This document shows positions 10,736-27,002 of a stretch of 64,000 nucleotides of DNA, one piece after another. The position numbers and the translations under genes are program-made. Source of the stretch: Synechococcus sp. BSA11S (GTDB lineage: Bacteria > Cyanobacteriota > Cyanobacteriia > PCC-6307 > Cyanobiaceae); NCBI RefSeq assembly GCF_014224355.1, contig NZ_VNWP01000001.1, positions 1-64,000 of the forward strand, written 5' to 3'. Numbering within the stretch: position 1 is the stretch's first letter; each line of letters opens with the position of its first letter. The notes under the pieces are model-generated. The model searched no databases. It was not told the DNA's origin and saw only the letters and a program-made list of their open reading frames with translations.

Positions 10736-10805
10736 GGAGGCATCCTGGCGGGGTGTGATGGGAGTGGCATTGGTACGTTGCCCACAGGGCCAGCACAATG
10801 GACCC

Positions 10806-11123: not shown

Positions 11124-11479
11124 CTGAGGACCAGAGGGATGTCCTGCTGAGCCTCCTGAGCGCACTCAAGCGTGCCCAGCGCAAATCCCAGTCTCTGATT
11201 GCCAGTCCTGAGTTATTGGATCAGGAGGAAGGTGAAGATGCTCTGGATGTGATCTGTATGTAGTTCCTCGCAGCCGGTGAATCTCTGAAGCGTTTGGAGC
11301 GTCTGTATCCTGGCCTCTTGCAGAATCGTTATCCCCATATCGACTGGAAAGGAGCAATGGGGTTTCGCGGTGTCATCGCTCATCAGTATTTTGATCTTGA
11401 TGTTGAACAAGTGCTTGTCATTTGTGAGCAGTCCCTGCCCGGCCTGATCCTTGCGGTTCAAGACCTGTTGGAGAACTGA
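11120..11479 (+). pseudogene. HEPN (DUF86) toxin with in-frame TAG
   Basis: The frame from GTG 11120 reads DQRDVLLSLLSALKRAQRKS up to DVICM, then TAG at 11261-11263, then without any shift continues FLAAGESLKRLERLYPG and ends at 11479. The catalytic HEPN motif RGVIAH (R-x4-H) and HQYFDLD lie after the stop. A single C-to-T change (CAG to TAG) explains it. Without suppression only 47 residues are made, so the RNase is probably dead. Confidence 0.75.
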
Positions 11480-11644
11480 TGAAGCGGCGCCACGTCGCTC
11501 ATTCGCCATGGCATCCATCTCTCCAGTCCCTTTGCTCCCCTCTGACCGTTCCTACAGTGAGTCCCTCGCTGGGTGAGGTGGCGGTGGCGCCCATGGCTGA
11601 CATGCTTCACCGACCCCAGATGGGGCGCTGCCGGTGGACCCTGC

Positions 11645-11809
11645 CCTCTGCGTCGCTCAGCTCCTTGCCGCCCACCAGCGCGACGGTGCCCTTCTCGCAG
11701 CGGGTTATGTCGTTGCCGGTGAGCACCTGGCCCAGCAGGCGGATCCCAGGCCCTGCTCGGCGATGAACGCCCGCAGGCGAAGGAAGGCAGCAGAGGGGCT
11801 GGAGGCCAT
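11645..11809 (-). repeat. HNH-HIT repeat remnant, copy 6
   Basis: From ATG 11809 (MASSPSAAFLRLRAFIAE) it carries a short N-terminal segment, then a deletion, then LLGQVLTGNDITRCEKG and VALVGGKELSDAE. The start sequence differs from MPPPP copies and is shared with copy 8, so there are two sub-families. It lies 64 bases before mazE. Bases 11480-11644 show nothing I can name. Confidence 0.6.
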
Positions 11810-11841
11810 GGAGTGATGCTGGCGCTCCAGCCACCTGAGAC

Positions 11842-11861
11842 GTCTATACTTCTGTCTATAC
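11842..11861 (+). promoter_or_regulatory. Direct repeat upstream of mazE, possible operator
   Basis: GTCTATAC occurs twice (11842-11849 and 11854-11861), spaced 12 bases, ending 11 bases before the mazE ATG. TATAC also resembles a -10 element. Position and repetition suggest an autoregulatory MazE/MazEF site. Confidence 0.4.
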
Positions 11862-11872
11862 GCCTGATTTCC

Positions 11873-12133
11873 ATGGCCGCCACCCCTTCGCGCCAGGCCC
11901 TGCGCCGCTGGGGCAACAGCCTTGGCATTCGCCTGCCTGCAGCCATTGCCCGGGAGGCTCAGCTGCAGGAGGGTCAGGCCGTGGAACTCTCCGTTGTGGA
12001 GGGAGGCGTGATGATCAGGTCGGTGCAGCGACGCCTGTCTCTGGCAGAACGGCTGGCGGCCTACGAGCCCATGGCTGGCGGACCCATCGAGGCTCTGGCG
12101 TTCAGGCCGCTCGGTGCTGAGGTCATCGAGTGA
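11873..12133 (+). CDS. mazE: MazE antitoxin (AbrB/SpoVT fold)
   Basis: The protein has 86 residues from ATG 11873. RQALRRWGNSLGIRLPAAIA is the swapped-hairpin DNA-binding signature of MazE; EGQAVELSVVEGGVMIRS completes the domain. The acidic-hydrophobic tail should wrap the toxin. It overlaps mazF by GTGA. The gene is intact. Confidence 0.9.
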   Translation: MAATPSRQALRRWGNSLGIRLPAAIAREAQLQEGQAVELSVVEGGVMIRSVQRRLSLAERLAAYEPMAGGPIEALAFRPLGAEVIE

Positions 12134-12513
12134 GTCCCCGCCGAGGGATCCAGGGCTGGGTGCCCGATCGCGGCGACGTGATCTGGATCGACCACAACCC
12201 CCAGGCTGGTCGCGAGATGAAGGATCACCATCCCTTTGCCGTCTTGTCCACAGCTTCCTTCCACAGCACCGTGGGCCTGGTGGTGGGCTGCGCCATGAAG
12301 TCAGCGCCCTACAAGTGTGGTTCCACCCTTGCTGTGGACCTGGGCCCCATCCCCGATCGGCCGGACAGCCACAGCTATGTGCTGTGCCAGCAACTCAAAT
12401 CCTTCGACTGGCGCGCCAGGGGCGCTCGCCCGCATCCGATCGGGCGACTGCAGGACTCCCAGCTGGAAGAGGTGTTGGCGATTGTGGGGCAGATCCTTGG
12501 GTTTGTCGTTTGA
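12130..12513 (+). CDS. mazF: MazF-type mRNA interferase toxin
   Basis: The protein has 127 residues from GTG 12130. VPDRGDVIWIDHNPQAGREM is the conserved N-terminal strand with the catalytic Arg region; HHPFAVLSTASFHSTVGLVV and QLKSFDWRARG follow, as in MazF/PemK. It would cut mRNA at short sequences. There is no visible damage. Confidence 0.9.
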   Translation: MSPRRGIQGWVPDRGDVIWIDHNPQAGREMKDHHPFAVLSTASFHSTVGLVVGCAMKSAPYKCGSTLAVDLGPIPDRPDSHSYVLCQQLKSFDWRARGARPHPIGRLQDSQLEEVLAIVGQILGFVV

Positions 12514-12574
12514 GCCATCGGACGCCAGGTGACGCTCGATCGAAGACCTGACCGGCAGCTTTGATTTTTGAGGG

Positions 12575-12705
12575 CGTGGCTGCGCCGGCCCAGCAACTCC
12601 ACGAGCATCAGCGGTTGGTCGATGGGGCTCATGCACATCCGCTCGGCGATGTAGTCGCGGAGGGGGTGGTGAGTGGCTGGTTTGTGACGGGGTTGGCACT
12701 GGTGG
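12575..12705 (-). repeat. HNH-HIT repeat remnant, copy 7
   Basis: The minus strand retains HHPLRDYIAERMCMSPIDQP, then LMLVELLGRR, and stops before the ARRIL block. The ATG block is eroded, but the upstream flank TGACGGGGTTGGCACTGGTG is kept. It sits about 90 bases before the second DUF433 gene. Confidence 0.6.
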
Positions 12706-12795
12706 AAGAGCGACTCCGTCGCCATGGCATCCCCCCAGCCGTTTCAAGGCCGAGAGCGCTGGTGCCGCCTGGCGTGGGGATGGCCAGGGAGCACC

Positions 12796-13029
12796 ATGGG
12801 AGACCAGCTCAGCCGGATCACCCTCAATCCAGAGGTGTGTCACGGGAAACCAACGATCCGTGGGTTGCGTTATTCTGTGGAGATGCTGTTCGACCTGTTG
12901 GCCGCCGGCATGAGCGCGGCTGAGATCTTGGCCGATTATCCCGATCTCGAAGCCGCAGACATCACCGCGGCACTTCAGTACGCGGCACAACTGGCCTGTG
13001 TTCAGAGGGTTGAACTACTGCCTGCATGA
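12796..13029 (+). CDS. DUF433 antitoxin, short form
   Basis: The protein has 77 residues from ATG 12796. RITLNPEVCHGKPTIRGLRY and VEMLFDLLAAGMSAAEILAD with YPDLEAADITAALQYAA are the complete DUF433 domain. It overlaps the next toxin gene by ATGA. It would bind the PIN-like toxin and the operon DNA. Confidence 0.85.
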   Translation: MGDQLSRITLNPEVCHGKPTIRGLRYSVEMLFDLLAAGMSAAEILADYPDLEAADITAALQYAAQLACVQRVELLPA

Positions 13030-13520
13030 AGATCCTGCTGGAAGCCCAGCTGCCGCCAGCCCTCAAGGGCCAGCTGGAACCCATGGGCTGTGATGTTCTT
13101 CATACCCTTGATCTTCCCGAAGGTAATCGCAGCTCAGACAAAACAATCTCCTCCATCGCAGACCACGACGGACGCGTGGTGTTCAGCAAGGATGCTGATT
13201 TCATCCAGAGTCATCTGCTGCGCGGAATTCCCGCCAGGTTGCTGATCTTGACCACTGGGAACATCAGTGCGCTTCCCAGGATCTGGCGGGCGATGACCTG
13301 GACCGGGGTGGGGCTGTTCATGCGCCTTCCGCTCGGCGATGAACGCCCGCAGGCGAAGGAAGGCGGCAGAGGGGCTGGAGGCCATGGAGTGATGCTGGCG
13401 CCCCCGCTGGGAATCCTTCTGGCGTGGGCGCGTGGCGGCTGCAGCCAATCCGGCTCCGGGTGCTGGCGTTTTGCCCCAGCCCTCCACAAGGCTGATGACA
13501 AAAGGCACACACGAGCCTAA
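13026..13520 (+). pseudogene. DUF5615 PIN-like toxin fused out of frame into repeat copy 8
   Basis: The first ~80 residues are a good DUF5615 toxin: MKILLEAQLPPALKGQLEPM, GRVVFSKDADFIQSHLLRG, then ARLLILTTGNIS. Directly after NIS at about 13268 the sequence becomes the reverse strand of HNH-HIT repeat copy 8, so the normal last ~30 residues of the toxin are replaced by unrelated translation to 164 residues. The second residue after ILL is Glu-Ala where family members have Asp-Glu. Toxicity is doubtful. Confidence 0.75.
13268..13385 (-). repeat. HNH-HIT repeat remnant, copy 8
   Basis: From ATG 13385 (MASSPSAAFLRLRAFIAER) it runs to a degraded ARRIL block (ARQILGS) that meets the truncated DUF5615 toxin. 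The start matches copy 6, and the flank beyond the ATG (GGCGTGGGCGCG then GGCTGCAGCCAA) matches that of copy 3. It is 145 bases before the BrnT-like gene. Confidence 0.65.
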
Positions 13521-13529
13521 GGTGTTTCG

Positions 13530-13811
13530 ATGAAGCCCTTTCGCTGGAGCTCAGGCAAGAACGAGGTCCTTCAGGTTCAGCGAGGCGTTCCCTTCGAGGC
13601 CGTGGTGGTCGCTATCGAATCCGGTGATCTGCTCGACATCGTTGAGCATCCGAACCAAGCCCGATACCCAGGCCAGCGCATTCTTGTCGTTCTGATCTCC
13701 GGCTATGCCCATCTGGTGCCGTTTGCCGAGGCCGACGATCACCTCTTTCTCGAAACCATCATTCCCAGCCGCAAAGCCACCATCGCCTACCGCCCAGGAG
13801 ACCCACCATGA
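13530..13811 (+). CDS. BrnT-like toxin
   Basis: The protein has 93 residues from ATG 13530. PFRWSSGKNEVLQVQRGVPF, AIESGDLLDIVEHPNQARYP, then HLVPFAEADDHLFLETIIPS resembles BrnT (a RelE-fold RNase), although it lacks the exact DUF497 spacing. It overlaps the CopG-type antitoxin by ATGA, with the toxin first as in brnTA. No break is seen. Confidence 0.7.
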   Translation: MKPFRWSSGKNEVLQVQRGVPFEAVVVAIESGDLLDIVEHPNQARYPGQRILVVLISGYAHLVPFAEADDHLFLETIIPSRKATIAYRPGDPP

Positions 13812-14092
13812 ACACCCTTGATCACGAAGAGCAGGAGATCCTGGAGGCCTTCGAAGCGGGCACGCTCCGTTCGGTGGCCACGGCCGCCGAGCGCTCCCGC
13901 CTGGAATCCTCCGCCAGGGTCACCCAAACCAAGGATCAGCGCATCAACATTCGCCTCACCAGCGAAGATCTGGGCGCCTTGCGCGCCCGAGCCCTGCAGG
14001 AGGGGATTCCCTACCAGACCCTGATCAGCAGTGTCCTTCATAAGTATGTGAGCGGCAGACTGCTGGATCGTCCCGGAAGCGGTGGAGCTTGA
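13808..14092 (+). CDS. CopG/BrnA-type antitoxin
   Basis: The protein has 94 residues from ATG 13808. KDQRINIRLTSEDLGALRAR, followed by ALQEGIPYQTLISSVLHKYV, is the ribbon-helix-helix segment of the CopG antitoxin group that pairs with BrnT-like toxins. The acidic N-terminal half should contact the toxin. The gene is intact. Confidence 0.85.
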   Translation: MNTLDHEEQEILEAFEAGTLRSVATAAERSRLESSARVTQTKDQRINIRLTSEDLGALRARALQEGIPYQTLISSVLHKYVSGRLLDRPGSGGA

Positions 14093-14300
14093 CGGTTGCG
14101 GGCGGCCTGAGGGGTAGGAGAGGTTTGATCTCGATGCCGGCCTCCTGCACGAGCAACAGCAAGCGGGAGATGTCGTGCGTCGAGGGTGGCGTGCTGCCGA
14201 GGTGGTGCAGCCAGGCCCACTGCTTCTCTTCGAGAAGGCTTCGCCTACGCAGAAGCCTTCGGCCACAAGGTCTTCTCCAGACACTGCAGCGCTTCAGGCC
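14050..14300 (-). pseudogene. HEPN-like toxin remnant with stop and frameshift
   Basis: In minus-strand frames I read EALQCLEKTLWPKASA, a stop, then in another frame WLHHLGSTPPSTHDISRLLL and VQEAGIEIKPLLPL. These match the helix pair and THDL motif of HEPN proteins. An 8-bp inverted repeat (14234-14241 with 14253-14260) sits at the break. Its end runs antisense into the CopG gene. It is far too damaged to work. Confidence 0.4.
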
Positions 14301-14824: not shown

Positions 14825-16321
14825 ATGGATTCAGACATGAGCAGCCACGACCTGCCGCCGATCGCCGGCTTCGAAGCCGAGATCCTCGCCCTGGTTCAGC
14901 AGCCCGGCCCCGTGGCACTGCCGCACACCAATCTGAACCTGGAGCGGATTCGCTCAGGCTTTGCCTGCGCGCTCCACATGCACCAGCCCACGATTCCAGC
15001 CGGGGTGAACGGTGCCCTCATCTCCCACCTGCAATACATGCTGGAGCACCCTGGCGAGGGCGACAACCACAATGCCGAACCCTTTGCCCGCTGCTACAGG
15101 CGCCTGGCTGACATCATTCCCCAGCTGATTCAGGAAGGCTGCAACCCTCGGATCATGCTCGATTATTCGGGAACTCTGCTCTGGGGAATCCAGCAGATGG
15201 GCCGCCACGACATCCTCGAGGCCCTCCAGGCACTTGCCTGCGATCCCAACCTCCAACCCCATGTGGAATGGCTCGGCACCTTCTGGAGCCATGCCGTGGC
15301 GCCCTCCACGCCCATTCCCGACCTGAAGCTGCAGATCCTGGCCTGGCAGCACCAGTTCGCGGCCCTCTTCGGCCATGAGGCGCTGCAGCGGGTGAAGGGA
15401 TTCTCCCCACCGGAGATGCACCTGCCCAACCACCCCGACACGCTTTATGCCTTCGTGAAGGCCCTCAGGGAGTGTGGCTACCGCTGGCTGCTGGTGCAGG
15501 AGCACAGCGTTGAAAATCTCGATGGTGCAGGCCTCAGCCAGGAGCAGAAAGTCGTCCCCAACCAGCTGGTGGCGCACAGCTCCCGCGGTGATACGGCCAC
15601 GATCACAGCGCTGATCAAAACCCAGGGCTCCGACACCAAGCTGGTGGGCCAGATGCAGCCCTGTCACGAAGCTCTTGGCCTCGCTCGGCAACCGCTGGGT
15701 GCCGCCACGGTTCCATCGCTCGTCTCCCAGATTGCCGACGGTGAAAACGGCGGTGTGATGATGAATGAGTTCCCGTCGGCCTTCATCCAGGCTCATCACA
15801 CCATCGCCGCCAAGGGGGATGATCCGGGAACGGTGGCGATCAACGGCACGGAATATCTTGAGTTGCTGGAAGATTCCGGTGTGGATTCAGGGGATTTCCC
15901 GAGGATTCAGGGGATCCACCAACACAAACTGTGGCAACGGCTCGGCAGCCTGCCCTCCCCGGAAGCCACCCCGGACGCCACGGCAGCGGCCATCGCCGAC
16001 CTCCAGGCCAGCGATCCCTCCTTCTCGATGGCCGGCGCCTCCTGGACCAACGACCTCAGCTGGGTGGAGGGCTACGCCAACGTGCTGGAGCCGATGAACG
16101 CCCTCAGCGCCCGTTTTCACCAGGTGTTCGATCCCCTGGTGGCCCAGGATCCCGGGGTGACCCTGACCCCTCACTATCAGCAGGCCCTGCTCCACCTGCT
16201 GCTGCTGGAAACCAGCTGTTTCCGCTACTGGGGCCAGGGCACCTGGACCGACTACGCCCGCGAGATCCACAGGCGTGGCGAAGCCGCGATCGCCAGCGCC
16301 CGGGTCAGCTGCAGCGCTTGA
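14825..16321 (+). CDS. Glycoside hydrolase family 57 protein
   Basis: The protein has 498 residues from ATG 14825 (ATG 14837 also possible). CALHMHQPTIPAG near residue 40 is the first conserved GH57 motif with the metal/substrate His. ARCYRRLADIIPQLIQEGCN and MLDYSGTLLWGIQQ follow, and the end (ETSCFRYWGQGTWTDYAREI) matches the C-terminal motif of GH57 amylase-like enzymes. It would act on alpha-glucans such as glycogen. It is cytosolic, since there is no signal peptide. It stands alone, without glycogen genes nearby. Confidence 0.85.
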   Translation: MDSDMSSHDLPPIAGFEAEILALVQQPGPVALPHTNLNLERIRSGFACALHMHQPTIPAGVNGALISHLQYMLEHPGEGDNHNAEPFARCYRRLADIIPQLIQEGCNPRIMLDYSGTLLWGIQQMGRHDILEALQALACDPNLQPHVEWLGTFWSHAVAPSTPIPDLKLQILAWQHQFAALFGHEALQRVKGFSPPEMHLPNHPDTLYAFVKALRECGYRWLLVQEHSVENLDGAGLSQEQKVVPNQLVAHSSRGDTATITALIKTQGSDTKLVGQMQPCHEALGLARQPLGAATVPSLVSQIADGENGGVMMNEFPSAFIQAHHTIAAKGDDPGTVAINGTEYLELLEDSGVDSGDFPRIQGIHQHKLWQRLGSLPSPEATPDATAAAIADLQASDPSFSMAGASWTNDLSWVEGYANVLEPMNALSARFHQVFDPLVAQDPGVTLTPHYQQALLHLLLLETSCFRYWGQGTWTDYAREIHRRGEAAIASARVSCSA

Positions 16322-16411
16322 TGCCAGCGGAGGCGGGCCATCGCAAGGCCCCCTTGGTCCCCCGCGGCCATTTGCGCTGGAGCGATCCTCCTGGTTCTGC
16401 GGATGGTTGGT

Positions 16412-16594
16412 TCAGCCGCCTGGACGCTGATGCTCAGCTGGGTGATCCGGGATTGCCAGGGGTGGCTGAGGCGTGGCGTTGTCGAGCCTGTCCCTGCAGG
16501 TGGAGCAGAGCACCCGGCCCTTTTGTTGGACGTAGCTGCGGGCAGAGCGTTCGATCTGAACGCCGCAACTGGTGCAGGCAAACAGAGGAGGCAT
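16412..16594 (-). CDS. Small zinc-ribbon-like protein, 60 aa
   Basis: From ATG 16594 it reads MPPLFACTSCGVQIERSARS and later GRVLCSTCRDRL: two CxxC pairs spaced like a zinc ribbon. The rest is short and proline-rich. Function unknown; it may bind nucleic acid or protein. Confidence 0.5.
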   Translation of the reverse strand: MPPLFACTSCGVQIERSARSYVQQKGRVLCSTCRDRLDNATPQPPLAIPDHPAEHQRPGG

Positions 16595-16659
16595 CGGATG
16601 CCGGAAACCTTTCCACAACTAGCCCAGGGACAGCAGTCCCGCCGTAGCCCCCTCTACTG

Positions 16660-16859
16660 GCTCTACAGGCCCCACAGACTGACCAGCAGGAGCAGGCCGG
16701 GCCCACAGGATCATCGACGGGAAAGTTCAGAAGGCCATTCCCTGGGGGGTCGTGGCGGCGATCACTCTGTTGCCGGTCGCCAGTTCGATCCTGATCTTCA
16801 ACCTGCGGCAGTCTGATCATCATCCCCTCAAGATGCGCAGGGAACTTCGTCAGTTCTGA
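16660..16859 (+). other. Unassigned stretch with a membrane-peptide-like frame
   Basis: One plus-strand frame ending at TGA 16857-16859 gives AIPWGVVAAITLLPVASSIL followed by a basic tail, like a single-membrane-span peptide, but it lacks an ATG, GTG or TTG at a sensible place. It may be the end of a decayed small gene. Bases 16860-17022 hold nothing I recognise. Confidence 0.25.
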
Positions 16860-17022
16860 GCAGGACAGACACCCCGGACACCTTCATGGAAGATCAGCGA
16901 ATCAGCAACGACCAGGTGGCGGTTGGCAGGGTTCGGCAGGTGATCTCGCTGGAGGCTATGGCGATTCACTCTGTCGTCATGATGGCCGAAGACACGCAGA
17001 CATCGAGGTGGCCTGAGGAGCT

Positions 17023-17686
17023 TTGTCCGTCGGGCGGTTCGTGGCGAGTCAGGACGAGTGCAGCTTGCTTCGCCCCGATCTTCAGAGTGAAGATCTGCGC
17101 CGTCTTTACCGGCAGTTTGAAGGGGGTGAGCAGGGCTTGATCTCTTCCAGTCAGGTGGATCGGGCCCTGGCCAACATGGCTGATGTGATTGATGAGGAAG
17201 GCGCAGCAGACCTACGATCGCTGGTGCAGGAGCAGGGACGCCTGAGTTTCAGCGGCTTTGCCGAGTGGGCCCTGAGACAGCCCACCTTCGACCTGATGGC
17301 GAATCATCGCGAGCTGTTCGCGTTGGTTGACAGCAATGCCAATGGCTACCTCAGCCGCATCGGGGTGGTCTGGATCGATGCCCACGACAACCGCCAGCAC
17401 GCCATCAACACCTCCGACTCCAGCACCCTCGGCCTCTGGAGGTCTTGCCGGAACCTGGCTGGCTGTCATCTGCTCTACGTCAGCTTCGATGGCGACAGCC
17501 TCGACGCCACCATCTGCAAAGGCACCGACACGCCGCCGCCTCCTGCGGATCCTGCTGAGCGATCAGCGAGTGGTGTGCTGGGAAATCTGCGAGATCAACC
17601 CTCATCTCGACAGCCTCAATACTCTTGCGGAGGTGTCGCTGGGGATCTACAAGTCCGTGCTAACGGTCCTCGATCAGAGGCTGTAG
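17023..17686 (+). pseudogene. EF-hand region joined to arginase remnant
   Basis: The first ~110 residues resemble an EF-hand pair (RRLYRQFEGGEQGLISSSQV; LFALVDSNANGYLSR is an EF-loop). Without a stop it passes into arginase-family sequence: GVVWIDAHDN, HLLYVSFDGDSLDATICKGT, then after a frameshift near 17530 RILLSDQRVVCWEICEINPH and LDSLNTLAEVS to 17686. The arginase Asp ligands (DAHxD; DxDxxD) are partly present but most of the enzyme is deleted. It lies 21 bases before the urea transporter, so an arginase producing urea probably once accompanied it. Confidence 0.55.
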
Positions 17687-17707
17687 ATCAAGCCTGTCCT
17701 CTCCCCC

Positions 17708-19360
17708 ATGCCCCAGTCCGAAGGAACAGACCAGGCCCAGGCTTTCGATCTGCTGGCCCGCTTCGTGGATTCCCCCGAGGCGCCGGCGCAGAGGCCATGG
17801 CTGCCCACGGCGGGCACCTTGCCGCAGCTCGTTGCACTGTGGGATGGGCATCCAGCCGCTGTGACCCTGACCTGCACCCTGCGCAGCCTGGGGCAGGTGA
17901 TCTTCATCAACAACCCGATCAGTGGCCTGCTGCTGCTGCTGGCACTTCTGTGGCAATCACCCGCCATGGGGATCTTCTCGGTGCTGGGGATCGCCACGGC
18001 GACCCTCACATCCCGGCTGATCGGTGCTGATCGCGGTGCACGGCTCAATGGCATCTACGGCTTCAATGGAGCGCTGGTGGGCAGTGCCGCAGCCGCCTTC
18101 GCCGCCTTGGATCGCCCCCTCAGCCTGGTGGCCTGGTTGCTGTTGGTGGCGGCTGGCGCGGCGCTCACCACGCTGCTGGTTGAGGGCCTGGGAGGTTGGC
18201 TGGTCAGGCGTCTCGGCGTGCCACCCCTCACCCTGCCGTTCTGCCTGATCACCTGGTTGCTGCTCTCCCTCGTGATGGCCGTCAGCCATCCGGCCCTGGG
18301 CCTGATGGTGGCGACTCCAGCCACGGCCCAGGATCCAGGTGGCGCCGGTCTGCTGCTGGGGGTGGTGCGGGGCTTCGGGCAGGTGTTTCTCTGCCCATCC
18401 CTGCCCAGTGGTCTGATCGTGCTGGTGGCCGTCGCCGCCGCCAGCCCCCTGGCCGCCCTTCTCGGCCTGGCCGGTGGTCTGGTCTCCAGCCTCACGGCCC
18501 TGGCGATCGGCATGGCGCCCGCTTCGGTGGCCCTGGGTCTGGGCAGTTACAACGGTGTGCTCACCGCCATCGCGATCGGCGGCATTTTCTACGCCACGAC
18601 CCGAGGCAGCCTGTTGATCGCTCTGCTTGCGGCAGCGGGCGCGAGCCTGGTGACGCCGGCTCTGAGCCAGGTCCTGGCCACAGCTCAGCTGCCCGTGCTC
18701 ACCTTCCCCTTTGTGCTGGCCACCATGGCCACGATGGTGGTGATGCGCCCGGTCCTTCCCTCCCTCCTGCCGGTGGCGCTGCATTCGGTGCACACCCCCG
18801 AGGAACACCGTCAGCGCTTCAGGGTCGCCAGGTCGCTGCTGAATGATTTTCGTCGCCGGCTTCGTCAGGCCGTCTGCGGTGAGCCGAAGGCGGTGCTGAT
18901 GCCAGGCGCGGAGGCTGCCCACCGCCAGCAACTCCAGAGCCTGTTCGAGGAGCTCGACAAGGACGGCAACGGCAGCCTCAGCGTGGCTGAACTCGCCACG
19001 GGTCTGATGCAGCGCCAGCCGTCGAATCGCGCCGATGCCGCCAGCCGACAACGCTTCCTGCTGATCAAGGGGATTCTGAAGCGCATGGATCTCAATGGCG
19101 ACGGCCGGGTGGATCACGTGGAATTCGCTGAACTGATGCTGCGGCTCCGCCGCCTGCAGGAGGGGCGCGCACGGCTGCTCACCTATCTGCAACCGGTGGA
19201 TGTCGACGGCAATACCGAGCTCGACCCAGCCGAGCTGGACCGGCTGCTGGTGAGCGTCGGCCAACCCCGCCTCCTGGAGGAGGAGCGCCAGCGGATCTTC
19301 GGCACCACAGGCGGTGGCCTGAGCTGGGGCAGTTTCCTCGATCAACTGCTGCTGACCTGA
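17708..19360 (+). CDS. Urea transporter with C-terminal EF-hand domain
   Basis: The protein has 550 residues. The first ~370 form a multi-span urea transporter domain: LRSLGQVIFINNPISGLLLL, then NGIYGFNGALVG and VPPLTLPFCLITWLLL, and their second-half repeats. From about 385 a soluble part carries EF-hands: ELDKDGNGSLSVAEL, RMDLNGDGRVDHVEF, and VDVDGNTELDPAELD. Calcium would plausibly gate or tune the channel. The fusion occurs in some cyanobacteria (recall). Upstream lies the arginase remnant. Confidence 0.85.
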   Translation: MPQSEGTDQAQAFDLLARFVDSPEAPAQRPWLPTAGTLPQLVALWDGHPAAVTLTCTLRSLGQVIFINNPISGLLLLLALLWQSPAMGIFSVLGIATATLTSRLIGADRGARLNGIYGFNGALVGSAAAAFAALDRPLSLVAWLLLVAAGAALTTLLVEGLGGWLVRRLGVPPLTLPFCLITWLLLSLVMAVSHPALGLMVATPATAQDPGGAGLLLGVVRGFGQVFLCPSLPSGLIVLVAVAAASPLAALLGLAGGLVSSLTALAIGMAPASVALGLGSYNGVLTAIAIGGIFYATTRGSLLIALLAAAGASLVTPALSQVLATAQLPVLTFPFVLATMATMVVMRPVLPSLLPVALHSVHTPEEHRQRFRVARSLLNDFRRRLRQAVCGEPKAVLMPGAEAAHRQQLQSLFEELDKDGNGSLSVAELATGLMQRQPSNRADAASRQRFLLIKGILKRMDLNGDGRVDHVEFAELMLRLRRLQEGRARLLTYLQPVDVDGNTELDPAELDRLLVSVGQPRLLEEERQRIFGTTGGGLSWGSFLDQLLLT

Positions 19361-19397
19361 ACCGACGCTGGAGACGCGTTCTGGGCGCGAGACCTGA

Positions 19398-20816
19398 TCA
19401 GTTGTCCTGCTGGGGTGGGTCGTGGCCGGACAGGGAGGGCGAGTGGAACGTCAGCAGTTCAAGCCAGGTCTGGGCTGCCCGCCTCAGCGTGAATCCCTGG
19501 GTGGAGATCAGGCGTTGGATCTGGTCACGGGCCCAGCTGCTGCGCTGCTCAGCGGGAACCAGTCCTGCCAGTTCATCGCACACGGCGTGGTTGTGTCCGA
19601 TCCAGTCACTGGTCACCGCCGTCGTTGAGGAACCCGGCCCGCTGGCCAGCCAACCCAGGGAGCCCGCCAGGGGCTGATCGGGCAACAGATCAGCAAGCCC
19701 GATCTCCGGACGGCGCGCCCCGAGCCACCAGCGACGGGCGCCCGCAGGGTCATGACCATGGCGATCACGGGCACGCCTCGGGAAGAACCCATCGATGGGA
19801 TTGTTCTCTCCCTCGACCACCTGCTGGGCGATCCAGTCGACCCGCCGACTCCTTCCCTGGGCGGGGGCCTGATAGAGCACCCGGCCCCTCACGGCATCGT
19901 GCAGGGGGCTGGTGGCATCAACCGAGATTTCCGTGTGGGGATCAAGGATCGCCGGCAGAGCGCAGTACTGCGCCCGCGAGCCCAGGCCGAGGCCGTGAAA
20001 ACGCTGCAACCGAACGCCAGCGTCGCGAAAGCCATCGCGGATGCCGAACAGAATCTCTGCCAACTTCACATAGCGCGTGGCTGTGGGTTGAGAGAGCTTC
20101 CGGCGTGCTGCCAGTGACGTCCACTGGGTGCCGGTCTGGAGGTTGTTCAGTCCGGCAAAACCCACCGCCACATTGCTGGCACCCTCTTCAGCGGCCATCC
20201 GTCCAGCTGCCTTGGCTGTGAAGTAATCAGCCGCCGCCAGGGTCACATAGACGTGCCGATCCCGTGCACGGGGATCGGAGATCATCGCCATCCAGCCATT
20301 CAGGCTGATGCGATTGCGCTGCCTGAACTTGTCGATCGACCAGCCGGTCATCGTGCGATCGATGCCCAGGCCCATCAGGCAACCAATGCAGAAATCCTCT
20401 GGGGCGATCAGATGGGTGGGATCCATCGCCATCTGCTCATCGATCACGGCGGCCCAGTCACGACCCTGATGCAAGGTGTCGATGAAGCGGGCAACCTCCA
20501 GGGCGAACATCTTTGCCGGTAGGCGCACAGCCTTGGGCATGCTGCTCATTGATGGTTCGCCACTTTCCTTGCGGATGGATCGGTAGGTGGAGAGGATCGA
20601 TCCGGCGGTTTCTGCGAACTCGTCGATGACGAGATCGATCAGTGGTTTGGTGCCATTGTCGGCCATCAGGTCAGCGCCGTCTTGGCGCACGTCTGCGGCC
20701 AGCTCGAGGGTCTGTGGGGTTGTTCGGTGACTGGAGAGCAGCCAGGCCGAAGAGACGTAACCGCTGTCGGCGTAGATCTCAGCGGTCTGAGGGCGGAGAT
20801 TGGTGAAAAAACGCAT
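19398..20816 (-). CDS. Unknown protein with weak resemblance to DpdA/TGT-type transglycosylases
   Basis: The protein has 472 residues from ATG 20816. FTNLRPQTAEIYADSGYVSS and DGADLMADNGTKPLIDLVI resemble the first strands of a TIM barrel; QRFHGLGLGSRAQY followed by TEISVDATSPLHDAVRGR resembles the late substrate strand of tRNA-guanine-transglycosylase-like DpdA proteins. No zinc site like that of bacterial TGT is visible. The match is by eye and weak. It is the last gene of a four-gene minus-strand operon. Confidence 0.4.
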   Translation of the reverse strand: MRFFTNLRPQTAEIYADSGYVSSAWLLSSHRTTPQTLELAADVRQDGADLMADNGTKPLIDLVIDEFAETAGSILSTYRSIRKESGEPSMSSMPKAVRLPAKMFALEVARFIDTLHQGRDWAAVIDEQMAMDPTHLIAPEDFCIGCLMGLGIDRTMTGWSIDKFRQRNRISLNGWMAMISDPRARDRHVYVTLAAADYFTAKAAGRMAAEEGASNVAVGFAGLNNLQTGTQWTSLAARRKLSQPTATRYVKLAEILFGIRDGFRDAGVRLQRFHGLGLGSRAQYCALPAILDPHTEISVDATSPLHDAVRGRVLYQAPAQGRSRRVDWIAQQVVEGENNPIDGFFPRRARDRHGHDPAGARRWWLGARRPEIGLADLLPDQPLAGSLGWLASGPGSSTTAVTSDWIGHNHAVCDELAGLVPAEQRSSWARDQIQRLISTQGFTLRRAAQTWLELLTFHSPSLSGHDPPQQDN

Positions 20817-20862
20817 GGGCCACTGATTCAGAACTGACGCTCAGGGCAATGGCAGGCGAAAA

Positions 20863-21333
20863 TTAATTGATGTAGTTGTGGTACCAACGCGATTCAACAC
20901 AGCAATGGGTATGCGTGGACTGCAGGAGCCCTTTGGTCTCAGCTTCGATGCTGCGTTGGGGCGCCAAATCATTGTAGCGATCATTGGCAAGTTGGAGCTT
21001 GTTGTTGGCTGCATCGACGATGGCCTGGTAGGCGGAAGAGGCTTCGTCGTCTCCAGCTTGTTCCGCATCACGCTGGCCCAGCTGTGCTTCGTTTCGGATG
21101 CGCTCAAGATCATCGCGGGTCGTGTAGTCGTCCAGCTCAGTCATTCGATCCTTGGCATCATCAAGCCAGGTTTGCACCTGGTCCAGCAGGCCAGCCACGT
21201 ACTCACAGTCGATCTGGTCGCAGGGGACATTGTTGAAGGTCTCAACAACGCCTGATCCATCCAGAAGGTCAGACACATCAGGGGGGTCGGGAATCCCATC
21301 AAGCTCGGCCTGAAGCTCCTCGGGGGTCAACAT
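20863..21333 (-). CDS. Unknown acidic coiled-coil protein
   Basis: The protein has 156 residues from ATG 21333. The sequence is acidic and helical with heptad-like stretches (LDQVQTWLDDAKDRMTELDD; NKLQLANDRYNDLAPQ). It has two Cys pairs in the first half and CC near the end. It starts 4 bases after the stop of the gene before it, hence is co-transcribed. I recognise no domain. Confidence 0.55.
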   Translation of the reverse strand: MLTPEELQAELDGIPDPPDVSDLLDGSGVVETFNNVPCDQIDCEYVAGLLDQVQTWLDDAKDRMTELDDYTTRDDLERIRNEAQLGQRDAEQAGDDEASSAYQAIVDAANNKLQLANDRYNDLAPQRSIEAETKGLLQSTHTHCCVESRWYHNYIN

Positions 21334-21337
21334 CTGC

Positions 21338-22450
21338 CTAGGCCTCCTGAAGTCTGGAAATCAGATCACCCGCTGAGTACTGCACTCCGATCGATGGAAA
21401 CTCCCAGTTCCCATCGATCACGCGAGGGTAAAGATCATAGGCGTGCCGAGCCTCATCGGCCAGCCAGTCTTCCCAGACAGTGTCGGCGTGGCTTCCCGGT
21501 CCTTCAAAGTGGGCCACAAGGATCTTCTCGCCATTGTCGTCGAGCTCCACCTTGCCTCGGATCCAGACGAGGGCTCCGGGCACGGTGCCGTTCTGCTTGA
21601 TGTCCCTGCGGTGGATCCGTAATTCCGATCCGTCGGTCAGCCGCAGAAAGGAATAGGGAATCAGGGGCCGATCCACCCAGCCCATTTCGGCAATTTCTCC
21701 AACCACCACCTGGTCTTCACCCTCTGGAAGGGCACTCAGGGGCAGGCCACCCTGCCACTGGGCAGTGTCGTAGCGCCGCAGGGTGGTGCGGTTGCCGGCG
21801 ATCCGCCTCATGCCGGCCTCACCGGGGCCGGTCGACAGGCGTCGCATCACCAGCACCGTGCCGGCCAGAAGCATGGCGTGACGCCGAGCGAGATCAGAGC
21901 AACGCAGGCCCAGATTCCCCATCCGTCGATCAGCCACCGGCAGGAGTCCTGCGCCTTCAAGGACAGGATCAAGCCTCTCAACGTCGTTGACGAGTTCAAG
22001 GAAGATCGCCGTGGCCGCAGGAAGATCTCCAGCCCTGGCCGTTTCCCTCAGGTCATGGAGGCGGGCGTCGTAGCTGGCCTCGGCCGTGCCAAGCAGCATC
22101 AGCAGACGCCCCGGGTTCACGGGTGTAGCGCCTGGCCTCATCACGGCGTCATGGAGCCGGGCATGCGCCGATCGACCAAGGGCCGAGGCCACCCGCTCGG
22201 CTTCCTCATCCGTGATGGCGCCGTAGCCCGGAAGCGGTTCGGTGGCTCCCTCGTCAATCACGTCGGGAACCCGGGGAAATTGAGAGAAGAGTTCACCCCA
22301 GGCGATGATTCGGCCTGGTTCTGCGGCATAAACCGCTGTGGATTCCTTGTCGGCGCTGAGCTGGAGAACGGTTGCGGCGATCCCTCGATGCAGCATCAGA
22401 TCGACCAGTGGCTGGCCTCTAAAGGCTATCGCACATCTGCCAGGCAGCAT
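21338..22450 (-). CDS. Unknown 370-aa protein, possible OB-fold C-terminal part
   Basis: It runs from ATG 22450. The N-terminal third is helical; residues about 240-310 (VDRPLIPYSFLRLTDGSELR, IRGKVELDDNGEKILVAHFE) alternate strands and could be an OB-fold-like barrel. The end is rich in aromatic residues (WEDWLADEARHAYDLYP). No catalytic motif is evident. It is tightly linked to the coiled-coil gene downstream. Confidence 0.55.
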   Translation of the reverse strand: MLPGRCAIAFRGQPLVDLMLHRGIAATVLQLSADKESTAVYAAEPGRIIAWGELFSQFPRVPDVIDEGATEPLPGYGAITDEEAERVASALGRSAHARLHDAVMRPGATPVNPGRLLMLLGTAEASYDARLHDLRETARAGDLPAATAIFLELVNDVERLDPVLEGAGLLPVADRRMGNLGLRCSDLARRHAMLLAGTVLVMRRLSTGPGEAGMRRIAGNRTTLRRYDTAQWQGGLPLSALPEGEDQVVVGEIAEMGWVDRPLIPYSFLRLTDGSELRIHRRDIKQNGTVPGALVWIRGKVELDDNGEKILVAHFEGPGSHADTVWEDWLADEARHAYDLYPRVIDGNWEFPSIGVQYSAGDLISRLQEA

Positions 22451-22513
22451 GCCAAGGGTCCTTCCCCGGGATTGTCCTCATGGTGCTGGCTGTTCAGTTA
22501 CACCTGCGATGGC

Positions 22514-22696
22514 TTAGGGCAGGGTGAATCCGGAGGTGTTCAGGTGCTTGAGATCGAGCATCACGATCGAGAGCCAGCCCAGCAGTGCCAGGCCGCCAAG
22601 AACGGCCAGGACGACCAGAACACCAGCCCATGCAGACTTCGACGAGCCGTTGTCGTTCATCACAGGAGCACGGGGTTGCTGCACGAAGTATGCCAT
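22514..22696 (-). CDS. Small single-span membrane protein
   Basis: The protein has 60 residues from ATG 22696 (ATG 22660 would give 48). After a short polar segment (NDNGSSKSAWAG) comes one membrane helix, VLVVLAVLGGLALLGWLSIV, then a short tail. It is first in the four-gene operon, 63 bases before the 370-aa gene. It could anchor or sense for the complex. Confidence 0.55.
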   Translation of the reverse strand: MAYFVQQPRAPVMNDNGSSKSAWAGVLVVLAVLGGLALLGWLSIVMLDLKHLNTSGFTLP

Positions 22697-22726
22697 GCCA
22701 GGGCTGTGCAACTATTCGCCGTATGT

Positions 22727-22754
22727 CAATCCTGCAGTTGCATGAACAGGATTG
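22727..22754. promoter_or_regulatory. Perfect 8-bp inverted repeat upstream of the unknown operon
   Basis: CAATCCTG (22727-22734) and CAGGATTG (22747-22754) are separated by 12 bases. The site lies about 30 bases before the start of the minus-strand operon, so it could be an operator. The remainder of 22755-23094 shows no gene; no CIRCE element was found upstream of the heat-shock gene. Confidence 0.4.
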
Positions 22755-23094
22755 TTGGTGCTCAGGACAGCTCTTGAACCGTGCTGAGTCCGAGCAAGAT
22801 GATCAACAAGTGCTGCAGTCCTCCGGGTTGGATCATCCTGAGTGGCCCGGATAGCTTCGCGACCTGGGCCCATCGAGGCCTTGGGGGCAACCGTCAGGGG
22901 CGGTCTCCCGCACCTTTTCAAGCCCACGCAGCGGATCGACAGTTCCATCAAGGGAGGTCCATCTGGACGCAACCGTCCATTCCGGTCCCGGAATTCTCCC
23001 GCGTGCAAGGTCGATGCCAGGCAGCGGTCGTGCATGTGGCGAGATGAAGAGCTTCCCTCCACACTCCTTTCACTCACCACCAGGAGGTCACGCC

Positions 23095-23547
23095 ATGGCG
23101 CTCTTGAAACGAGAATCCCTTAAAGACGTCGAAGATCTCTTTGACAGATACACCCTTTCGTTGCCCTGGCCGTTCACTCGCAGCAGTTCTGGCCTGGCCG
23201 GCATGCCCCTCCATGACTGGCACCCTCGGGTCGACATCTCCGAAACCGCCACGGGTTATGAGGTCCGCGCCGACATCCCCGGTGTCAGCAAGGATGACCT
23301 GAAGGTGACTCTTCAGGAAGGGGTCCTCACCATTCAGGGTGAGCGCCGTCAGGAGCAGAAGGAGGAGAACGAGCGCATGCACCGCGTCGAGCGGGTCTAC
23401 GGCAGCTTCAGCCGCAGTTTCCACCTCCCCGACGACGCCGATGCCGCCGCCATGACCGCCACGGCCAATGACGGACAGTTGACGGTGTCCCTGCCCCGCA
23501 GAGGTCCGGCCCCCAGCGCGGAACCGCTCCAGATTCCGGTTCAATGA
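23095..23547 (+). CDS. Small heat-shock protein, Hsp20 family
   Basis: The protein has 150 residues from ATG 23095, with AGGAGG at 23082-23087. The alpha-crystallin domain covers about residues 40-135: WHPRVDISETATGYEVRADI, PGVSKDDLKVTLQEGVLTIQ and GERRQEQKEE. The tail EPLQIPVQ provides the I-x-V assembly motif. It is an ATP-independent holdase chaperone in the cytosol. Confidence 0.95.
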   Translation: MALLKRESLKDVEDLFDRYTLSLPWPFTRSSSGLAGMPLHDWHPRVDISETATGYEVRADIPGVSKDDLKVTLQEGVLTIQGERRQEQKEENERMHRVERVYGSFSRSFHLPDDADAAAMTATANDGQLTVSLPRRGPAPSAEPLQIPVQ

Positions 23548-23570
23548 GAACGGACCTGTGAGCCCGGCTG

Positions 23571-23951
23571 ATGCCTGTTCTCGCCCGTGCCGTTCTGCTG
23601 ATGCTCGGCTTCGCCGCCATGCCACCGGCCCTGGCGGCGGAGCGCCTCTCCACCATCCCGGAGCGTTTCCGGGGCATCTGGATGGCCGAAGCCCGCCACT
23701 GCACCGCCCCGGCCACGGATGAATCCTGGCTGCGGATCGGGGCTGATCAGATCAGCTTCTACGAGAGCGCCGGCCCCGTGCTGGCGATCGTGACCCGGGG
23801 GGCTGATCAGCTGGCTCTGATCAGCGAGCTCAGCGGCGAGGGCAGCACCTGGCTGGACCTGCACCAGTTCACGCTCTCCGCCGACCGCCAGCAGCTCACG
23901 ACCCGGGCGCCAGGCCTGGCCGACCCCTACCAGCGGGTTCGCTGTCCCTGA
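23571..23951 (+). CDS. Secreted hypothetical protein, 126 aa
   Basis: ATG 23571. There is a signal peptide (VLLMLGFAAMPPALA, cut after AxA). The mature part, RFRGIWMAEARHCTAPATDE followed by ISFYESAGPVLAIV, looks like a small periplasmic beta protein with two Cys that could pair. No function recognised. It follows hsp20 by 23 bases. Confidence 0.6.
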   Translation: MPVLARAVLLMLGFAAMPPALAAERLSTIPERFRGIWMAEARHCTAPATDESWLRIGADQISFYESAGPVLAIVTRGADQLALISELSGEGSTWLDLHQFTLSADRQQLTTRAPGLADPYQRVRCP

Positions 23952-24086
23952 GCGCCTCTCGTCTGGTGCGAGCCTTCCTGCTCCCGCTGAACCGGTTGTG
24001 TGTCGCTTCCAGGCGGGCAAGGCCTGCGCCTGGGCACAACGTTCTGACCGCCGATACGCTGGCGAACTCTTCACCAGCACCGCACC

Positions 24087-24293
24087 ATGGCCCCCAGGGT
24101 CTCCCTTGCAGCCCGCAGCAGGCGCGTGAGCCGGGAAGACGCACTGCAGCAGCTTGATCTGGCCACTCTGGCCCAGGCGTATCGCTCCGGCCATTCGGTG
24201 TACCTGGGCCGCGGCGACTTCTGGATCTGGGCCCACGACGGCATCCCCTCCTGGCTCGTGCCCCGGTTCGAGGATCTTGGCTTTCTGCCGTAG
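24087..24293 (+). CDS. Small hypothetical protein, 68 aa
   Basis: ATG 24087. The protein begins with basic residues, then DALQQLDLATLAQAYRSGHS and DFWIWAHDGIPSWLVPRFED. The composition is protein-like and it lies just before folK. No domain recognised. Confidence 0.45.
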   Translation: MAPRVSLAARSRRVSREDALQQLDLATLAQAYRSGHSVYLGRGDFWIWAHDGIPSWLVPRFEDLGFLP

Positions 24294-24324
24294 CTCTCCG
24301 CCCCCGCCACGGCCTGGGACGACC

Positions 24325-24918
24325 ATGGCCGTGGTGTCAGGTCTCGCCATAGCTCTCGGGGCGAACCTCGGCCATCCCACCCGCACCCTGACCGCCGTGC
24401 GGCCATTGCTGAGCCAGCAGCTGCTCGACTGGGCCGGCTTCCCGCTGCTGCTGCGCTGGTCGCCGCTGTTTCGCACGGCGCCGGTGGGCGGGCCGCCGGA
24501 TCAGCCCTCGTTCATCAATGCCGCTCTTCTGGCCGTTCGCCCGGAGCCGGAGGAGACCGCGGTGAGGGCTGGCCTTGAGCCCTGGCCCGATCCCCTGGGG
24601 TTGCTGGAGCGGCTCCAGGGGCTGGAGGCGTGCTTCGGCCGCCGGCGCCTGGAGCACTGGGGACCCCGCAGCCTCGATCTCGATCTCCTCTGGTGCGCTG
24701 GGGCCCGCCGCCACAGCCCCCAGCTGGAGCTGCCCCACCCGCGTCTGCGCCAGCGTGCTTTTGTGATCGGCCCCCTGGCGGCGATCGAACCGCAGCTGGT
24801 GCTTCCCGGCGGTCTCGAGACCGCCGCCTCCCTGTTGGCTGAACTGCTCAGCCGCACAGGGGCCGAACCGCCCCCGTTGTTGCTGCCGGCTCAGGACGGC
24901 TGGCCCGAGGGGGGCTGA
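24325..24918 (+). CDS. folK: 2-amino-4-hydroxy-6-hydroxymethyldihydropteridine pyrophosphokinase
   Basis: The protein has 197 residues from ATG 24325. IALGANLGHPTRTL is the N-terminal HPPK strand; RTAPVGGPPDQPSFINAAL and WGPRSLDLDLLWCAG are the substrate and metal (DLD) motifs; ELPHPRLRQRAFVIGPLA completes the site. The enzyme makes the pyrophosphorylated pterin for folate synthesis. Genes for a Nudix hydrolase and photolyase follow in the same direction; folate-derived MTHF is an antenna cofactor in some photolyases. Confidence 0.95.
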   Translation: MAVVSGLAIALGANLGHPTRTLTAVRPLLSQQLLDWAGFPLLLRWSPLFRTAPVGGPPDQPSFINAALLAVRPEPEETAVRAGLEPWPDPLGLLERLQGLEACFGRRRLEHWGPRSLDLDLLWCAGARRHSPQLELPHPRLRQRAFVIGPLAAIEPQLVLPGGLETAASLLAELLSRTGAEPPPLLLPAQDGWPEGG

Positions 24919-24966
24919 TCGCGCCTGGCCGGCGGTCACACTGGTGTGGCTGCTCCACCTCCCTCC

Positions 24967-25530
24967 ATGGCTCCCCTGCCGCCCCCCGAGCCCTCCACCC
25001 ACCTGGAAACCACGGCGGCACTTGAAGCCCGCAAACTTCGCTTCGAGCTCAACCGGGTGCTGCTGCCGATGGGGGTGGAGGGCACCTACGGGATCATTCG
25101 CCATCCCGGGGCCTCCCTGGCTGTGCCGGTGCTGGCTGACGGGCGGGTGGTGGTGCTGCGCCAGTACCGCTTCGCCGTGGAGCGCCGCATCCTCGAGTTC
25201 CCCGCCGGCACCCTGGAAGACGGCGAAGACCCCCTGGAGTCGATGCAGCGGGAGCTGGGGGAGGAGGCCGGCTACAGCGCCACCCGCTGGGATTCCCTGG
25301 GCCTGATGCTGCCCTGCCCCGGTTATTCCGATGAGGTGATCCATCTATTCCTGGCCAGGGATCTCTCGCCCCTCAGCGAGCGGCCCCCGGGCGATGACGA
25401 CGAGGATCTGCAGGTGCTGCTGCTTGAGCCCGCCGCCCTTGATTCGGCCCTGGCCAGCGGTGATGAAGCCCTTGATGGCAAGAGCGTCACCGCCTGGTTC
25501 CGGGCCCGCCAGCTGCTCGGCCTCGCATGA
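24967..25530 (+). CDS. Nudix hydrolase, ADP-ribose pyrophosphatase-like
   Basis: The protein has 187 residues from ATG 24967 (GTG 24946 would add 7). The Nudix box GTLEDGEDPLESMQRELGEE with AGY matches Gx5Ex7REUxEExGU. PGYSDEVIHLFLARDL fits the ADP-ribose group. It would hydrolyse ADP-ribose or a related nucleotide sugar. It overlaps the photolyase start by ATGA. Confidence 0.9.
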   Translation: MAPLPPPEPSTHLETTAALEARKLRFELNRVLLPMGVEGTYGIIRHPGASLAVPVLADGRVVVLRQYRFAVERRILEFPAGTLEDGEDPLESMQRELGEEAGYSATRWDSLGLMLPCPGYSDEVIHLFLARDLSPLSERPPGDDDEDLQVLLLEPAALDSALASGDEALDGKSVTAWFRARQLLGLA

Positions 25531-27002
25531 GCTCGCCCCGCTGGTTGTTCTGGCACCGCCGCGATCTGCGCCTGGCCGACAACCTGGGCCTGGCCGCCGC
25601 CGCCCGCGCCACCGCCGCCGTCACCGGCGTGTTCATCGTCGATCCAGCTCAGGAGGAGGCCCTCGACCGTTCCGCGTCCCGTCTCTGGTTCCAGAGCGAG
25701 AGCCTGCTGGAGCTGCAGCGCCGCTGGCGCGAGGCCGGCTCCCGGCTGCTCCTGGTGCGGGGGGATCCGGCTGAGCTGCTGCCACAGCTGGCGGAGGCCA
25801 GCGGCGCTGAAGTGGTGGCCTGGAACCGCGATGTGGAGCCCTGGGCCCGCGCCCGCGATCGTCGTGTCGCTGAGGCCCTGCGCGCCAGCGGCTGCAAGCT
25901 GCTGGCCGACTGGGACCAGTTGCTGGTACCCCCAGAGACCCTGGCCACCGGCGCCGGGGACCCCTACCGGGTCTACGGCCCCTACTTCCGGGCCTGGCGC
26001 CGGCGGATCGAGCAGGCCGGTCCCGAGAGCACGGCCCCCGTTCCCGCCCCATCGGGCCTGATCGATCTCGATCCTGCTGCGATGCCCGCCGAGCGCCGCC
26101 GGCTCTGGGACCGGATGAGCTGGTTGGAGCCGGCGCCCAGCCCCTTCGCGGGCGCTGATCTCTGCCCCTGCCGTCCCGGTGAGGCGGCCGCTGCCGCCCA
26201 GCTGGCTGCCTTCGCCGATGGGCCCCTGCTGAGTTATGAGTCAGGCCGCAACCTGCCGGCGGAGCCGGGCACCTCGGGCCTGAGCGCGGCGCTCAGGTTC
26301 GGCACCCTCAGCCCACGCCAGGCCTGGGCCGCCGCCCAGGAGCAGCGCCCACGGGCCCGCAGCGAGGAGGAGCACCAGGCGATCACGGTCTGGGAGCAGG
26401 AACTGGCCTGGCGCGAGTTCTACCAGCAGGCCCTCTTCCATTTCCCGGAACTGGCTGACGGTCCCTACCGCCCCCAGTGGCGCCACTTCCCCTGGGAGAA
26501 CGACGAGGCCCGATTCGTGGCCTGGTGTGAGGGTCTCACCGGCGTGCCGATCGTGGATGCCGCCATGCGCCAGCTCAACGCCTCAGGCTGGATGCACAAC
26601 CGCTGCCGGATGATCGTGGCCTCCTTCCTGGTGAAGGATCTGATCGTGGACTGGCGCTGGGGCGAACGCCGGTTCATGGACCAGCTGGTCGACGGTGATC
26701 TGGCGGCCAACAACGGCGGCTGGCAGTGGAGTGCCAGCAGCGGCATGGATCCCAAACCCCTGCGCATCTTCAACCCCTACACCCAGGCGGCCCGCTTCGA
26801 TCCCGAAGCCGCCTACATCCGCCGCTGGTTGCCTGAGCTCTCCCATGTGGCCAGCGCCGATCTGATCCGTGGGGAGATCGCGCCCATGGAGCGCCGGGGG
26901 TACCCGGGGCCGATCGTGAACCACAAGACGCAGCAGGCCCGTTTCAAGGCGCTCCATGCCGCGCTGGCGCCTCCGGCTCAGGAGGCCAGGCTGAGGGGCT
27001 GA
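25527..27002 (+). CDS. phrA: Deoxyribodipyrimidine photolyase
   Basis: The protein has 491 residues. The antenna domain starts WLFWHRRDLRLADNLGL. The FAD domain shows RFGTLSPRQAW, WEQELAWREFYQQ, then the conserved Trp/Asn region GLTGVPIVDAAMRQLNASGW MHNRCRM and DGDLAANNGGWQWSASSGMD. It repairs cyclobutane pyrimidine dimers using blue light. It is translationally linked to the Nudix gene. The 3' end overlaps the convergent DegT gene by 25 bases. Confidence 0.95.
   Translation: MSSPRWLFWHRRDLRLADNLGLAAAARATAAVTGVFIVDPAQEEALDRSASRLWFQSESLLELQRRWREAGSRLLLVRGDPAELLPQLAEASGAEVVAWNRDVEPWARARDRRVAEALRASGCKLLADWDQLLVPPETLATGAGDPYRVYGPYFRAWRRRIEQAGPESTAPVPAPSGLIDLDPAAMPAERRRLWDRMSWLEPAPSPFAGADLCPCRPGEAAAAAQLAAFADGPLLSYESGRNLPAEPGTSGLSAALRFGTLSPRQAWAAAQEQRPRARSEEEHQAITVWEQELAWREFYQQALFHFPELADGPYRPQWRHFPWENDEARFVAWCEGLTGVPIVDAAMRQLNASGWMHNRCRMIVASFLVKDLIVDWRWGERRFMDQLVDGDLAANNGGWQWSASSGMDPKPLRIFNPYTQAARFDPEAAYIRRWLPELSHVASADLIRGEIAPMERRGYPGPIVNHKTQQARFKALHAALAPPAQEARLRG

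Follow-up and report, generated by a model that had tools for sequence, protein, structure and literature searches.

A three-gene accessory insert in Synechococcus sp. BSA11S and the suggestive local resemblance of its 472-residue protein to the DpdA/TGT nucleophile block

Introduction

DpdA and Tgt (the bacterial tRNA-guanine transglycosylase) belong to enzymes that, in tRNA or DNA, replace guanine with a modified base. In the Dpd islands of bacteria, dpdA-C are responsible for the modification and dpdD-K for restriction (PMC11888242, in part). A conserved histidine at position 196 has been named for phage DpdA, the protein of Enterobacteria phage 9g among them (Hutinet et al. 2019; PMC6884629, in part). 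The portion of a 2026 survey used here describes TGT-bearing BREX-related capture systems without DpdB or DpdC, and work cited in it suggests that DpdB can be dispensable (PMC12839542). Because these systems lack DpdB and DpdC, a TGT-like enzyme with other partners is not unprecedented. Here we describe a locus of Synechococcus sp. BSA11S (genome size 2.88 Mb, 42 contigs) within a 64,000-nucleotide stretch of contig NZ_VNWP01000001.1, called the window, whose numbering is used throughout. Gene content and the small genomes of the family suggest a picocyanobacterium. Three genes at this locus encode proteins of 370, 156 and 472 residues. They form an orphan cassette, and the largest protein is possibly, as judged from its sequence, a member of the TGT superfamily that has diverged very far. 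By current models it is not a member of DpdA or Tgt. Among the papers listed in searches of the open-licence PubMed Central literature, none appears to describe this cassette.

Results

Three genes form an accessory insert in a variable spot

We compared the window by blastn with 19-kb stretches from three genomes of the same genus (G003, G004 and G005). DNA similarity of all three to the window starts at position 22516, the stop codon of a gene for a one-span membrane peptide, and none was found in these stretches from there down to position 19361. The membrane peptide near hsp20 is present in all three genomes, and in all four genomes, including that of the window, it ends in LDLKHLNTSGFTLP followed by the stop codon. 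Neither the 472-residue nor the 370-residue protein has a match in the three genomes, where the 156-residue protein was not separately searched. G004 also has the urea-transporter gene whose end lies at 19360 in the window, but different genes fill the interval; the left edge of the 3.2-kb insert is known from this genome only. Because the 472- and 370-residue genes and similar DNA are absent there, the interval is most simply seen as an accessory insert at a site whose content varies.

The sequence-only reading had joined the membrane peptide and the three other genes into a four-gene operon, which is misleading, since the peptide and hsp20 adjoin in the three genomes without the 472- and 370-residue genes. 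The peptide is a conserved flanking gene that lies outside the insert, and the unit is most simply a three-gene accessory insert.

The 472-residue protein matches the DpdA/TGT nucleophile block

Using hhalign, we found a suggestive resemblance of residues 268-322 of the 472-residue protein to the DpdA/TGT nucleophile block. In the alignment with twelve DpdA-like proteins, which covers residues 269-322, H274, S298 and D300 fall on the DpdA invariants H196, S213 and D215, while G277 and G311 align with the near-invariants G199 and G226. The block, with its conserved histidine, aspartate and a glycine 11 positions after the aspartate, scored above decoys in three of seven profiles. With the profile of twelve DpdA-like proteins from phages and plasmids (alignment A1), the protein scored 35.7 (best of 200 shuffles 25.1, best of 123 open reading frames (ORFs) 21.8); with a DpdA plus Tgt profile, 39.7 (best of 83 decoy ORFs 19.3); and with an 18-sequence profile of bacterial and phage DpdA, 38.7 (best of 109 decoy ORFs 24.7). 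None of 400 shuffles reached the last score (best 23.9), the reversed sequence scored 15.1, and E. coli Tgt, which lies outside this profile, scored 42.2 in the same run. The motif H..G-x(13-30)-S.D-x10-G has four matches in 1633 ORFs (231,543 residues) besides this protein and the phage 9g DpdA, although only half of the 12 A1 proteins (6) contain it. A faint DpdA/TGT likeness had been noticed in the sequence-only reading; the part of it that lies in this block survives decoys and shuffles, while the match depends on the profile and the rest of the barrel has none.

Several observations weigh against membership of the TGT superfamily. The three supporting profiles are nested and share the same twelve proteins, and they therefore amount to one line of evidence; their HH probabilities, in the order given above, reach only 31, 59 and 50%. 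As ORF decoys we used stop-to-stop frames from the window and a few fetched loci, and many of these frames are not real proteins. The other four profiles, which are narrower, did not separate the protein from decoys. With a 94-sequence profile dominated by phage 9g relatives, which also holds the twelve A1 proteins and on which E. coli Tgt itself reaches only 24.6, the protein scored 27.4 against 27.5 for the best decoy. The corresponding scores were 16.4 against 25.6 with a Tgt-only profile of eight sequences, 17.3 against 26.4 with a profile of two bacterial sequences, and 21.8 against 25.5 with a profile of six bacterial sequences, on which E. coli Tgt scored 85.3. The near-invariant S216 of DpdA is replaced by alanine. 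Without the block the protein scores about 23.0-23.1 (residues 1-262: 23.1), which is decoy level (best of 400 shuffles 23.9, best ORF decoy 24.7); here residues 2-28 land on the DpdA DSG columns. There are two rival candidates for the first catalytic aspartate, D17 (D17-S18-G19) and D53 (D53-N54-G55), and no counterpart of P138, H141 and G143 in the PxxHxG strand of DpdA was seen by eye. A single-sequence AlphaFold model was not confident (pLDDT 39.4, pTM 0.31), a weak match to TruD occurs at about residues 187-242 (E 2e-4 to 6e-4), and the PADLOC models of DpdB and DpdC match none of the four proteins of the locus.

Family libraries are silent on the cassette

Family libraries gave no informative match for any of the four proteins. 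The whole 472-residue protein matches no Pfam or PADLOC family, and a PHROGs tail-protein match is at chance level. NCBIfam NF041059, PADLOC DpdA and Pfam TGT PF01702 do not match it at full length (E<=1; PADLOC E<=10) or as segments of 343, 158 and 138 residues (E<=10), while two control proteins (P0006 and P0007) were matched. This silence is weak evidence because the phage 9g DpdA itself (L033 3007-3960) has no Pfam DpdA/TGT match and only a PADLOC match at E=0.02. Segment matches to DUF7158, FluMu_N, Fer4_NDSU1, Cu_bind_CorA and RutG were at chance level. The Pfam "DpdA" family PF23859 matches nothing in the host genome, and its two sub-cut-off matches in 292 genomes were judged chance; the test is uninformative because PF23859 has no match to the phage 9g DpdA either. 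No CxCxxC, which we take to be the zinc-binding motif of Tgt, was seen in the sequence of the 472-residue protein.

For the 156-residue protein only composition-type matches were obtained (FliH, baseplate hub). Residues 205-370 of the 370-residue protein gave an AlphaFold model too poor to use (pLDDT 39.0), and the OB fold proposed for its C-terminal half is unproven. No defence model matched at E<=1 when all four proteins were scanned, or at E<=10 (PADLOC) for the 472- and 370-residue proteins, and a defence role of the cassette is unproven.

The frames look coding and their relatives are nearly absent from the data searched

The four minus-strand ORFs are present as the sequence-only reading gave them, with gaps of 63, 4 and 46 bases, and all four frames look coding. 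When codon usage was trained on six other genes of the window and all six frames of each ORF were scored, the frame read here was the best of six in each case, with 0.149 to 0.252 bits per codon as compared to at most 0.016 in the other frames (the membrane peptide was scored on 22514-22669). These scores alone are not decisive, because an ORF antisense to the urea-transporter gene reaches 0.192 bits per codon (sense frame 0.469).

Relatives of the cassette proteins are nearly absent in the data searched. In 60 genomes, and likewise in 386 genomes of the phylum, the only match of the 472-residue protein at E<=0.001 was its own genome. Among 400 genomes of the family, six match at E<=0.1, its own included, and one of the five others is real. 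This genome (G475), of a different genus, carries a C-terminal remnant of the gene with 114 aligned codons that are 75% identical. Differences between the two copies at codon positions 1, 2 and 3 number 25, 16 and 53, and the frame therefore evolves as coding sequence in its C-terminal 114 codons. The remaining four matches (G510, G516, G546 and G658; E 0.03-0.06) were judged chance, three of them resolving into scattered weak alignments and the fourth (L062) into none. Absence of co-occurrence elsewhere, which the sequence-only reading named as a refutation of its proposal, can be judged only in part, from this one relative: neither the upstream part of the 472-residue gene nor the 370- and 156-residue genes were found within 20 kb around the remnant.

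Searches of phages and plasmids (tblastn, E<=0.1) did not find the 472-residue protein, nor did searches of viral and GTDB contigs with six exact 8-residue peptides, which detect close relatives only. For the 370-residue protein, 201 family genomes yielded its own genome alone at E<=0.001. Among the 400 at E<=0.1 it matches its own genome and has twelve hits in others (E 0.013-0.097, 14.9 bits or less), which we put down to chance on their score and scatter, without individual inspection. Plasmids, phages and, with the same kind of peptide search, viral and GTDB contigs gave none. Viral contigs scanned with a degenerate DNA motif gave two antisense matches in tail genes, which were rejected.

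Comparison with known systems

The 472-residue protein shares with the phage 9g DpdA the block HG.G...S.D..........G, including the histidine (9g H196), and has D300 at the place of 9g D215 (PMC6884629, in part). It differs in the distance from the candidate acid/base aspartate to D300, which is 283 or 247 residues as compared to 143 in 9g, and in lacking a match elsewhere in the barrel, with P138, H141 and G143 unmatched. Unlike the case of phage DpdA, no preQ0 genes were recognised in the insert.

The likeness to the bacterial DpdA of Dpd islands, as on the Picosynechococcus plasmid NZ_CP014001 and Enterobacter pPOL9A, lies in the nucleophile segment, which reads SVDATSPLHDAVRG in the 472-residue protein and SFDSASPLRRAWLG in the Picosynechococcus DpdA. 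The models that recognise the Picosynechococcus protein are silent on the Synechococcus one. Of the four proteins of the locus, none has a relative among DpdB, DpdD and DpdK of Enterobacter (blastp, best E 0.27), and none matches any ORF of the DpdA-bearing Picosynechococcus plasmid. On that plasmid (L156 1074-7082) DpdA is fused to a DpdC/DUF6884-like N-terminus, and a second short TGT homologue and helicases are also encoded. A Gloeothece plasmid (NC_014534; L165 3854-4738) encodes, close to genes for DnaN and DnaX on the plasmid, a 294-residue "hypothetical protein" with a distant likeness to DpdA (21.7% over 171 query residues, E 7e-6).

With Tgt, of which the host genome carries its own normal copy, the protein has two features in common in our alignment, the D-x10-G spacing that follows the nucleophile and the overall order of strands, whereas the Tgt-only profile finds no match above decoys. 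The BREX-related capture systems resemble the proposed arrangement of the cassette in placing a TGT homologue beside unrelated partners, without DpdB or DpdC. They differ in carrying PglZ, a BrxC-like ATPase, a STAND NTPase and HerA (PMC12839542, in part), and library models of proteins of these types matched none of the four proteins.

Alternative explanations and possible function

We tentatively propose a variable three-gene cassette beside a conserved membrane-peptide/hsp20 locus, with the 472-residue protein a highly diverged base-exchange enzyme of the TGT superfamily; we regard this as possible and remain doubtful of it. There is a considerable chance, not far short of even, that the protein is instead an enzyme of another kind, such as a beta/alpha-barrel, without relation to base exchange, whose resemblance is convergent or due to chance and whose role is some other accessory one (metabolic, toxin or defence). 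Such an origin is consistent with a match of only about 50 of 472 residues, obtained with some profiles only, and with libraries that find the Picosynechococcus DpdA and its second TGT and yet give no TGT or DpdA match here. It also fits the Foldseek search of the poor model, where mixed TIM barrels are many among the 50 of 932 matches listed and none of the 932 reaches E<=0.001 (best E 0.047); owing to the low confidence of the model, we do not use this search as evidence. A chance resemblance accounts less well for three diverse profiles that place the protein above all decoys and shuffles tried, with a score that approaches E. coli Tgt's in the single supporting profile where Tgt served as a control, and the library silence counts for little given how the phage 9g DpdA fares. 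Very improbable, by our estimate, is a degenerate protein like the tRNA pseudouridine synthase TruD. NCBIfam NF002153 does match residues 187-241 (E 5.8e-4; shorter segments 3.8e-4 and 1.7e-4), but at 18.5-20.2 bits against a cut-off of 413 bits; Pfam TruD PF01142 has no match in the genome at E<=1, and hhalign against E. coli TruD scores only 14.0. In AGxKD, which we take to be the catalytic motif of TruD, the KD is NN in the protein (AGLNN in our alignment), and other TruD motifs were not seen.

A decaying or selfish remnant that no longer has a function, left over for example from phage or island genes, is an explanation of the cassette that we consider unlikely. That the cassette is intact in a single genome while a genome of another genus holds a truncated copy, and that an array of small toxin-antitoxin-like genes is near, would suit a remnant; against it, the three frames are intact and coding-like, and the third-position excess in the C-terminal part of the 472-residue gene shows past purifying selection.

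If the 472-residue protein is a base-exchange enzyme, D300 would by analogy attack C1' of guanosine in DNA or RNA and release guanine, and a 7-deazaguanine (preQ0 or preQ1) from the queuosine pathway of the host would be accepted. The 370-residue partner might bind or position nucleic acid, and the acidic 156-residue protein might act as a scaffold or regulator. The TIM fold, the remaining barrel and base exchange itself are unproven. The wider proposal, that the cassette is a minimal three-gene system from a further deeply diverged TGT-superfamily lineage, in which a new nucleic-acid-binding partner replaces DpdB/DpdC and host-derived deazaguanine marks DNA or RNA, strikes us as distinctly improbable. 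Were base exchange confirmed, known nucleic-acid base exchange would extend to a lineage missed by current family models, with a partner set unlike Dpd; were it refuted, the cassette would illustrate how orphan accessory genes occupy a variable site. Either way caution is warranted, as the only phage DpdA that was scanned, that of 9g, escapes Pfam and comes close to escaping PADLOC, so that library silence says little.

Gene layout and neighbouring features

Table 1. Positions of the insert, its genes and the flanking membrane-peptide gene in the window.
Feature	Position	Strand	Remarks
Accessory insert	19361..22515		from urea-transporter/EF-hand gene to membrane-peptide stop codon; blastn against G003, G004, G005
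472-residue protein (P0001)	19398..20816	-	candidate diverged TGT/DpdA-superfamily enzyme
Block coding residues ~268-323 of the 472-residue protein	19848..20015	-	hhalign match to DpdA/TGT nucleophile strand (FHGLGLG...SVDATSP...G)
156-residue acidic protein	20863..21333	-	probably coiled coil (by eye)
370-residue protein (P0003)	21338..22450	-	no relatives found; C-terminal half beta-rich by eye
One-span membrane peptide	22514..22711	-	65 residues from TTG; start codon uncertain, inner starts possible

The perfect inverted repeat that the sequence-only reading placed ahead of the operon consists of only 8-nucleotide arms (22727-22734 and 22747-22754) with a 12-nucleotide loop. By our own estimate chance alone would yield about 0.5 such 8-nucleotide pairs in 441 bases, and the repeat is unremarkable. 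An Rfam scan of 16000-26000 gave no match. We considered tRNA-linked integration and set it aside; the sole tRNA found in the window is at 56379.

The membrane peptide, strongly conserved in the four genomes of the genus, falls just below the cut-off of Pfam DUF3649 (20.3 as compared to 21.2 bits). On the other side of the insert, the gene at 17708-19360 encodes a urea-transporter-like membrane protein fused, by eye, to C-terminal EF-hand repeats, and among eight genomes of the same genus it has a match (76%) in G004 only. Farther away, 7656-14284 holds a dense array of small toxin-antitoxin-like genes that by eye include nucleotidyltransferase-, AbrB-, mRNA-interferase-, HicA- and HNH-like types. 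DNA resembling this array is found again at the locus of the G475 remnant (L066, 12.5-19 kb).

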